From: Acidimicrobiales bacterium
GTDB taxonomy: Bacteria; Actinomycetota; Acidimicrobiia; Acidimicrobiales; GCA-2861595
Reading direction: 5' to 3'
DNA: 64,000 nt
Assembly: GCA_036262515.1 (NCBI GenBank)
Contig: DATAIT010000009.1
Coordinates: 1 to 64,000 of the forward strand
Below are positions 36,641 through 47,850 of this stretch, in pieces. The position numbers and the translations under genes are program-made. The notes beneath the pieces were generated by a model. The model saw only the letters and a program-made list of their open reading frames with translations, was not told the DNA's origin and searched no databases. Positions within the stretch are counted from its first letter, which is position 1. Each line of letters opens with the position of its first letter.

Positions 36641-37252
36641 TCACCGACGGGGTAGCAGCAGCGCCGGCGGCGGCAAGCGGTAGCCCGTCCGCCCGGTGAG
36701 GGCCTTCACCGATCCGGCGAAGCTGTCGGGGATGGCGAAGTCGAGAGCGTCGGCCAGCCGTGTCACCGTCGAGAAGATCACGCAGACCATCGCCGCGTCG
36801 CGGATGGCGGCATCGTCCAAGCCGGCGGCCCTCGCCTCGTCGATGTCGGCGGCCGTCACCTCGTCTGGCCGCAGTGCAAGGACCTCGATCAGCCGAAGGG
36901 CGGCGCGGACCGCAGGGCTGACCGGCGCTCCGGCCGGATCCCGGAGCACCTGAAGGACCAGGGTGTCGCCGAGGAGGTCGGACGCGACCGCGCCGTGGGC
37001 GCCTGTTCAGAAGGGGCACTGCAGCAGGCTCGACGTGTAGGCGGCGAACAGCTCCCGCTCGCCGGCCGTCCACCGGGACGGTCCCCGCATGATGTCCTGG
37101 AACGCGGGCGACGCCCAACGCCCGAAGAGATTGGGCCGGTAGAGATGCACCTTGACGATGTCGGGCGGCTCGGCCCGGCCCGCTCGGCGAATCACCGCCG
37201 CGAGCAGCCTTGCCGGCAGGGCGAAGTCCCCATCGACGGCGCGCAGTCTCAC
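36641..37252 (-). CDS. AhpD/CMD-like protein, candidate selenoprotein (in-frame TGA)
   Basis: Reading from GTG 37252 gives 81 codons, then TGA at 37007-37009, then 121 more sense codons in the same frame to the stop at 36641. The break falls in C79-P-F-[TGA]-T-G-A-H86, where AhpD/carboxymuconolactone-decarboxylase proteins have C-x-x-C-x-x-x-H; the paralogue at 47464 has CRFCALFH. TGA therefore stands exactly for the second redox Cys, as in CxxU selenoproteins. A SECIS-like hairpin follows. Decay by a TGC-to-TGA change is the alternative. It overlaps the upstream gene by 4 nt. Confidence 0.65.
36976..36989 (-). promoter_or_regulatory. SECIS-like hairpin downstream of the in-frame TGA
   Basis: On the mRNA, GGUCG pairs with CGACC around the loop CGUC, beginning 17 nt after the TGA, so the loop starts 22 nt after it. 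Bacterial SECIS hairpins are described as having small apical loops with a G among the first loop bases at about this distance. The stem is short, so support is moderate. Confidence 0.4.
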
Positions 37253-37617
37253 GACCCGCCCTCGAGCAGGCGGTCGATGACTGCCCGCCGCCGAAGCCCT
37301 TCGCCGACGGCGGTGGCCACAACCAGTTCGAACAGCTGGCTGTCGCTCCACCCGGTCTCGCGTTGGGTGCCCTTCACGTCCTCGTCGGTCACTGCGTACG
37401 CCCGGCGCCGGATCTTGTCGACCAGTCCCGCCGCGGCGGATGGGACCTCGCCGCCCTCGAGGGCGGCTCGGCGTACGGCGTCGTCCAATTCGCCCGGGCC
37501 GTCGCGTAGCCGGTCCCGCATCCGGTCGAGCGCTGTGTCGGCCCGCCGTTTCACCGTTGCGACGGTACCGCAGGCGAGCCGGCGCAGGTACTCGGGCGCG
37601 GCCCGCTGACCGTACAT
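37249..37617 (-). CDS. Helical partner of the AhpD-like gene
   Basis: A 122-residue all-helical protein without a redox Cys pair (its single Cys is near the N-terminus). Its second half (VTDEDVKGTQRETGWSDSQLFELVVATAVGEGLRRR) resembles the helical core of carboxymuconolactone-decarboxylase-like proteins minus the CxxC. It overlaps the start of the AhpD-like gene by 4 nt (GTGA), so the pair is translationally coupled and probably forms a complex. ATG 37617. Confidence 0.75.
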   Translation of the reverse strand: MYGQRAAPEYLRRLACGTVATVKRRADTALDRMRDRLRDGPGELDDAVRRAALEGGEVPSAAAGLVDKIRRRAYAVTDEDVKGTQRETGWSDSQLFELVVATAVGEGLRRRAVIDRLLEGGS

Positions 37618-46870: not shown

Positions 46871-47288
46871 CGTTCGCCTCGGCCATCCTGGCGAGCATGC
46901 CGGCGTCCCAGCGGCCGCCGCAGAAGAACCGGTCGCCGGCGATGCGGCCCGAGGGGTCGAAGCGCAGGACGTGGCAGTGGTGGGCGGCGTGCGGGACACC
47001 CCGCTCCGACCAGCTCAGCAGGTACGTCACCACCTCACCGCCGTCGACGGCGAGCCGCTCCAGTTCCTCGAGTCCGCCGGGGTGCGCGAACCAGCCGCTG
47101 TACTGCTCGGACAGCCTGTCAGCGCCGTGCAGGGGGAAGCGCCACCCGGGAACGGTGGCGTCGAGGACGGCATCGCCGGCGAAGAGCTCCGCCGGAACGC
47201 CGTCACCGCCGGCGATGGCGTCGAGCAAGCGGTCGACGGTGCGACCTCCGAGGACGGCGGCGTCGGTCGTTGTGCTGGTCGGAGTCAT
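46860..47288 (-). CDS. SnoaL/NTF2-like protein
   Basis: A 142-residue protein with the NTF2-like pattern: VDRLLDAIAGGDGVPAELFAGDAVLDATVPGWRF, then WFAHPGG and HHCHVLRFDPSGRIAGDRFF. Such domains act as small hydrolases, isomerases or ligand binders. First gene of the coupled minus-strand set with the kinase and methyltransferase. Confidence 0.8.
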   Translation of the reverse strand: MTPTSTTTDAAVLGGRTVDRLLDAIAGGDGVPAELFAGDAVLDATVPGWRFPLHGADRLSEQYSGWFAHPGGLEELERLAVDGGEVVTYLLSWSERGVPHAAHHCHVLRFDPSGRIAGDRFFCGGRWDAGMLARMAEANDAG

Positions 47289-47463
47289 GGCGTCATCGTC
47301 AGTCGTGGCTCCTGCAGGAACCCTGCACCATCGCCGTGGCCCGGCAGCTCAGGCCGGCGGCGACCCGGGGGTGCGACTGCAGGGGATCTGCAAGGACCGG
47401 TCCGTACGGTTCCTCCCGGGCCCCACGGTGGCGGCCCGACAGCGGAAAAAGGGAGAAGACGCC

Positions 47464-47850
47464 ATGGCGAGGACCGACGTCCAGCGGGAGATGAAGGAGA
47501 TGTTCGGCGAGGTGATCGGCTTCGTCGACCTGATCCCCGACCAGTACATCGACGCCGAGTGGGATCTCATCAAGCGGGTGCAGTTCGGGGAGACGCTGAT
47601 CCCGAACAAGTACAAGGAGCTGATCGGGCTGGCCGTGTCGGCCGCGACGCGGTGCCGCTTCTGCGCACTGTTCCACACCGAGGCGGCCAAGCTCTTCGGC
47701 GCCAGCGACGAGGAGATCGAAGAGGCGATGCACTACACGAAGCTCGTGAGCGGCTGGAGCACCTACATCAACGGGATGCAGGTCGACTACGACGAGTTCA
47801 AGACGCAGGTCGAGCGTGTCGTCGAGCACGTCAAGGCGACGGCGGCCTGA
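47464..47850 (+). CDS. AhpD-like carboxymuconolactone decarboxylase family protein
   Basis: A 128-residue CMD-family protein with the redox motif C64-R-F-C67 and H71 (CRFCALFH), expected to have alkylhydroperoxidase-like disulfide activity. YKELIGLAVSAATRC is typical of the family. GGGAG lies before ATG 47464. It supplies the cysteine version of the motif that is interrupted by TGA in the gene at 36641-37252. Confidence 0.9.
   Translation: MARTDVQREMKEMFGEVIGFVDLIPDQYIDAEWDLIKRVQFGETLIPNKYKELIGLAVSAATRCRFCALFHTEAAKLFGASDEEIEEAMHYTKLVSGWSTYINGMQVDYDEFKTQVERVVEHVKATAA

Follow-up and report, generated by a model that had tools for sequence, protein, structure and literature searches.

A predicted AhpD-like selenoprotein and its upstream half-AhpD partner gene in an Acidimicrobiales genome

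The window analysed here, a stretch of 64,000 nucleotides from contig DATAIT010000009.1 of an Acidimicrobiales bacterium, contains a gene interrupted by a single TGA, and the question raised by the locus is whether this codon ends a broken gene or encodes selenocysteine (Sec). A sequence-only reading of the region had proposed a candidate selenoprotein on the basis of one frame broken only at 37007-37009, within C-P-F-[TGA]-T-G-A-H, without naming the strand. Translation agreed and placed the frame on the minus strand (37252-36641), with TGA 37009-37007 as its sole interruption and C79-P-F-[TGA82]-T-G-A-H86 as the motif around it, while the plus-strand frame at 36641-37252 was unrelated to the AhpD-like protein. 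The evidence presented below indicates that the in-frame stop almost certainly encodes a Sec residue in the active site of a redox enzyme resembling peroxidases. The GTG start of the gene (Table 1) is a point counted against this explanation.

Table 1. Features of the locus, with positions in the window.
Feature	Position	Strand	Description	Evidence
AhpD-like selenoprotein gene (predicted)	36641..37252	-	203 residues, Sec at residue 82; start GTG 37252-37250, terminal TGA 36643-36641	translation
Predicted Sec codon	37007..37009	-	TGA; residue 82, in place of the second Cys of AhpD CxxC	
Conserved hairpin, predicted SECIS	36981..36994	-	GGCGC-GGUC-GCGUC, loop 36989-36986	conservation, covariation, frozen third bases
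Hairpin of the sequence-only reading	36976..36989	-	GGUCG-CGUC-CGACC	not conserved
Partner gene	37249..37617	-	122 residues, upstream; stand-alone relative of the AhpD-like C-terminal half, without CxxC	

Protein family and active site

The protein read through the TGA matched the TIGR01926 model (peroxidase-related enzyme) with 83.0 bits, over the curated cut-off of 81.8, and also Pfam CMD. All 40 family members were matched by TIGR01926 (E up to 0.001), and a profile built of them found the AhpD structures 6k40, 2pfx, 3c1l, 2oyo and 2prr. In the alignment of these 40 sequences E67, C79, C/U82 and H86 were invariant, forming the AhpD-type pattern E-x11-C-x2-C/U-x3-H. The AlphaFold model of the selenoprotein was all-helical and confident (pLDDT 91.4), and Foldseek related it to AhpD-type structures, the best being 3c1l (E 5e-9, TM 0.73-0.80). 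The same spacing, E-x11-C-x2-C-x3-H, is found in Mycobacterium tuberculosis AhpD, the site of which we take to be E118, C130, C133 and H137; Sec82 would then fall at the position of Cys133, presumably the attacking residue. The window also includes the CxxCxxxH paralogue mentioned in the sequence-only reading: ORF 46897-47850 (plus strand) ends in a second AhpD-like protein, a Cys form with CRFCALFH that belongs to another subfamily.

Members of the CMD superfamily catalyse varied reactions, and peroxidase activity is what we infer for this one. A selenoprotein acting on another substrate, as a redox enzyme of thiol-disulfide or dehalogenase type within the superfamily, therefore keeps appreciable weight, also because the debrominase Bmp8 was among the weaker structural matches. 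It is nevertheless less probable than a peroxidase-like enzyme, since the full AhpD set E-x11-C-x2-U-x3-H is invariant and the closest matches among models and structures are peroxidase-related. In a peroxidase-like enzyme Sec82 would most likely attack, reducing a peroxide or other oxidised substrate, and would then form a selenenylsulfide with Cys79, to be reduced by a thiol donor.

The TGA codon, the Sec machinery and the downstream hairpin

Relatives were sought in 84,980 genomes using a profile with the Sec position masked. The scan found 281, of which the 80 closest were kept. The aligned codon was TGA in 73 of the 80 and TGC or TGT in the remaining seven (74 TGA against seven Cys with the window included), and because of this recurrence a chance origin of the in-frame TGA is excluded. 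Judged by record title, the TGA members came from Actinomycetota, Gemmatimonadota, Chloroflexota, Myxococcota, Acidobacteriota, Planctomycetota and other groups, some of the labels of metagenome-assembled genomes (MAGs) being doubtful. One such genome carrying the two-gene module, labelled Bifidobacterium breve, grouped with MAGs of Myxococcota and Pseudomonadota. In the plasmid records searched, all relatives were distant. The apparent TAG codons inside some order-level homologues were rejected as recoded positions, being ordinary terminal stops overrun by the match in the two that were read.

A pseudogene, in which a nonsense mutation made the TGA an ordinary stop, would account for the mechanically interrupted frame, which a standard ORF caller breaks into two ORFs. 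It is very improbable, as the same TGA is present in relatives whose proteins are only about 38-67% identical and which are spread over many phyla, and the protein remains under selection beyond the codon. When the window was compared with L050, the nearest relative (67% identity), the coding signature persisted 3' of the TGA, with 30, 20 and 44 differences at codon positions 1, 2 and 3 and pN/pS 0.55. Also the hairpin described below speaks against a pseudogene, being conserved only where the codon is TGA or in likely Cys descendants of TGA.

The checks proposed with the sequence-only reading, namely the codon in homologues, the Sec machinery of the genome and a SECIS element downstream, all turned out in its favour. 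The draft genome comprises 129 contigs (3.41 Mb, 98% complete). On contig C48 it carries neighbouring selA and selB genes (412.9 and 280.1 bits, each over its cut-off), and it also has a selD with the Cys form of the active site, and one copy of tRNA-Sec with anticodon TCA (UCA; Rfam 67.3 bits, ARAGORN concurring). The Sec pathway is therefore complete. At least one further client is plausible: the gene on contig C88 for the formate dehydrogenase alpha subunit reads NQARI-U-HSSTVPGLGTSFGRG across an in-frame TGA. Its hairpin, GUCCCC-GGUCU-GGGGAC, comes after that codon, with the loop and very nearly the spacing seen in the AhpD-like gene. Among the 50 genomes of relatives tested, selA was detected in 48, the exceptions being one MAG with the TGA form and Nocardia anaemiae with the Cys form.

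The seven Cys forms comprised five from Mycobacterium, one from Nocardia and one from Chloroflexi. They were scattered on the tree, where parsimony required five changes, two of them forced by well-supported branches and many forks being unresolved. After the TGC or TGT, the five Mycobacterium genes have a relic hairpin, GAGGC-GGUC-GCUUC and variants, and their genomes still have selA; the retention of both suggests that these Cys forms arose by Sec-to-Cys conversion.

Downstream of the codon, the sequence-only reading had described a GGUCG/CGACC hairpin as the SECIS element. Such a hairpin exists in the window and appears in the minimum-energy fold of the window sequence alone, but the pairing was wrong: GGUC forms the loop and not the stem. 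In 61 relatives only 25.9% of the cells of the proposed stem were paired, with no excess over shuffles, and it was rejected as a functional SECIS. The conserved hairpin sits five bases nearer to the TGA, its GGUC loop beginning 17 nt past the UGA and being closed by GGCGC/GCGUC.

This hairpin is present in the 74 TGA sequences at positions 16-29 counted from the TGA, and its five inner pairs were standard in every one of them. The prevailing form was GGCGC-GGUC-GCGUC (56 sequences), followed by GCCGC-GGUC-GCGGC (nine) and GGCGC-AGUU-GCGUC (seven), with UCCGC-GGUC-GCGGA and GACGC-GGUC-GCGUC once each. The compensatory changes, G.U to C-G, G-C to U-A and G.U to A-U, kept all the pairs. In 61 distinct sequences three pairs had changed on both sides and 98.6% of the cells were paired; the covariation score was matched by none of 500 shuffles, a figure that relatedness of the sequences can inflate. 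Third bases at fourfold-degenerate sites were nearly frozen, with entropy of 0-0.59 in the five hairpin codons compared with 1.13-1.84 in the conserved codons around them. The hairpin also offers an example of protein sequence constrained by mRNA structure. The pattern occurs only once in the window's genome, and no Rfam model matched it.

The window's stem is 5 bp long, while most relatives have 6 bp. The upper stem alone had an energy of -6.8 kcal/mol in the window and in L050, whereas the four further TGA relatives that were folded gave -8.1 to -10.8. The minimum-energy fold of the window mRNA favoured competing pairings, and the conserved hairpin had a probability of 0.001 when the 40 nt following the UGA were folded, or 0.16 when the first 9 nt were assumed to lie inside the ribosome. 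The predicted course is that SelB with Sec-tRNA would decode UGA 37009-37007 as Sec, guided by the coding-sequence hairpin at 36994-36981.

General UGA recoding occurs in some bacteria, so the codon might be read as Trp or Cys, or passed by general leaky readthrough. This is as improbable as a pseudogene: the genome has the complete Sec pathway, the terminal codon of the gene is also TGA, the relatives substitute Cys and never Trp, and a SECIS hairpin is predicted downstream of the UGA. Least probable of all is an error of sequencing or assembly over a real TGC or TGG, for which the draft state of the genome could be cited but not the TGA in 74 distinct sequences from independent assemblies, among them isolate genomes of Ktedonobacter, Dictyobacter and Nannocystis.

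The partner gene

The sequence-only reading had noted a partner gene overlapping the start by 4 nt, and this is indeed the case: the partner ORF ends in GTGA, and these last four bases overlap the GTG start of the selenoprotein gene. In 79 of the 80 related loci a homologue of the partner was the gene immediately upstream, most commonly with an overlap of 1 or 4 nt, and it accompanied Sec and Cys forms alike. No third gene common to most of the 80 loci was found, the other recurrent neighbour clusters being lineage-specific or overlapping the selenoprotein gene in another frame. Among the order-level AhpD homologues, the partner occurred only with the four that belong to this selenoprotein's subfamily (83 to 113 bits). 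The other order-level matches to the partner profile (30 bits or less) fell within the AhpD proteins' own frames, a result to be expected of their C-terminal halves.

In 2oyo the partner HMM matched residues 120-172, and in 6k40 it matched residues 121-184. The AlphaFold model of the partner (pLDDT 92) matched AhpD structures with Foldseek probability up to 1.00, yet with E of 0.25 or weaker, and with VIA-align the Z-score was 8.6 or less, which is middling for a helical protein. In the alignment of 48 partner sequences only R49 and E97 were invariant, and the conserved columns included no Cys. We read the partner as a catalytically dead half-AhpD that would assemble with the selenoprotein; translated together with it, the Cys-less protein would probably serve as a non-catalytic subunit or assembly partner.

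Taken as a whole, we consider it highly probable that the locus encodes an AhpD-like, peroxid_rel-type selenoprotein the UGA of which is decoded by SelB under guidance of the hairpin, and which is co-translated with a half-AhpD. The comparative sequence data support the predicted Sec codon, SECIS element, machinery, catalytic motif and conserved gene pair; the enzymatic reaction, the substrate, the heteromeric complex and the function of the partner are what we infer from them. A further-reaching proposal, to which we give slightly less than even credence, is a two-subunit selenoenzyme with the dead half-length AhpD as an obligate, translationally coupled partner. The two genes would then have been passed together between Actinomycetota, Chloroflexota, Gemmatimonadota, Myxococcota, Acidobacteriota and Planctomycetota, with the RNA signal keeping the protein sequence H-G-A-V-A-S nearly fixed. 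Whether an AhpD relative that lacks Cys can be a selenoenzyme subunit is a question that this gene pair makes readily testable.

Comparison with known systems

The bacterial SECIS model, as set out in a 2026 review (PMC13188914), has a G among the first two bases of the loop (G[G|U]), a flanking N1-N2 pair, a UGA-to-loop distance of 16-37 nt, a stem of 4-16 bp and an energy of -7.5 kcal/mol or lower. Measured by this model, the window hairpin agrees in its GGUC loop, the 17-nt spacing and the stem of 5-6 bp, and its N1-N2 pair varies between G-C and A-U, while the upper stem at -6.8 is slightly weaker than the limit. The open-access literature searched for a GGUC tetraloop or such selenoproteins in Actinobacteria yielded nothing useful.

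AhpD-like selenoproteins with Sec in CxxC were said to be known in the sequence-only reading, correctly so: they have been catalogued since 2005 (PMC1088965, PMC2398784, PMC13188914), and because of this the window gene joins a known class. These sources include the "AhpD-like protein" selenoprotein of the Sargasso Sea (PMC1088965) and, in the AhpD passages of the 2026 review, TIGR01926 among the AhpD-like selenoproteins (PMC13188914), and MCB9421940.1 is given as a published representative. The window protein shares with this class (TIGR01926 / COG2128) the superfamily and Sec at the second CxxC position, differing in that it barely clears the cut-off. With NF041238 (AhpD_rel_CFYUT, alkylhydroperoxidase-related (seleno)protein), a profile of 357 residues, it shares homology over residues 66-171 and Sec in CxxU, but it reached only 39 bits against a curated cut-off of 175. 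In NCBIfam 20.0 the general TIGR01926 model alone catches the subfamily, and an ordinary ORF caller would split such genes at the TGA; the present data add a widespread selenoprotein subfamily, in which the Mycobacterium Cys members with the relic hairpin are a likely case of Sec-to-Cys conversion.

Four loci from genomes of the same order represent a second AhpD-like group in which a TGA stands in frame. This group has the motif CHY-U-xxHHRRGL, from which that of the window protein differs, and, 18 nt downstream of the TGA, the hairpin CGGCGC-GGUCU-GCGCCG or one very similar to it. Many further order-level genomes had AhpD-like matches with one TGA inside.

Mycobacterium tuberculosis AhpD (1knc, 1gu9) is of the same fold class and was weakly found by Foldseek (TM about 0.4-0.5), but has Cys where the window protein has Sec. 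The closest solved structures by profile and fold, Deinococcus radiodurans AhpD (6k40) and Mlr4105 (3c1l), with about 26% identity, are likewise Cys enzymes, unlike the window protein. The upstream half-AhpD partner sets the window subfamily apart from the CHYU loci and the other AhpD loci examined, which are without it. The AhpD passages of the open-access reviews do not mention a two-gene module, which is not to say that it is unpublished; relative to these passages, the partner upstream in 79 of 80 loci is what is new here, the CxxU AhpD-like class itself being already known.
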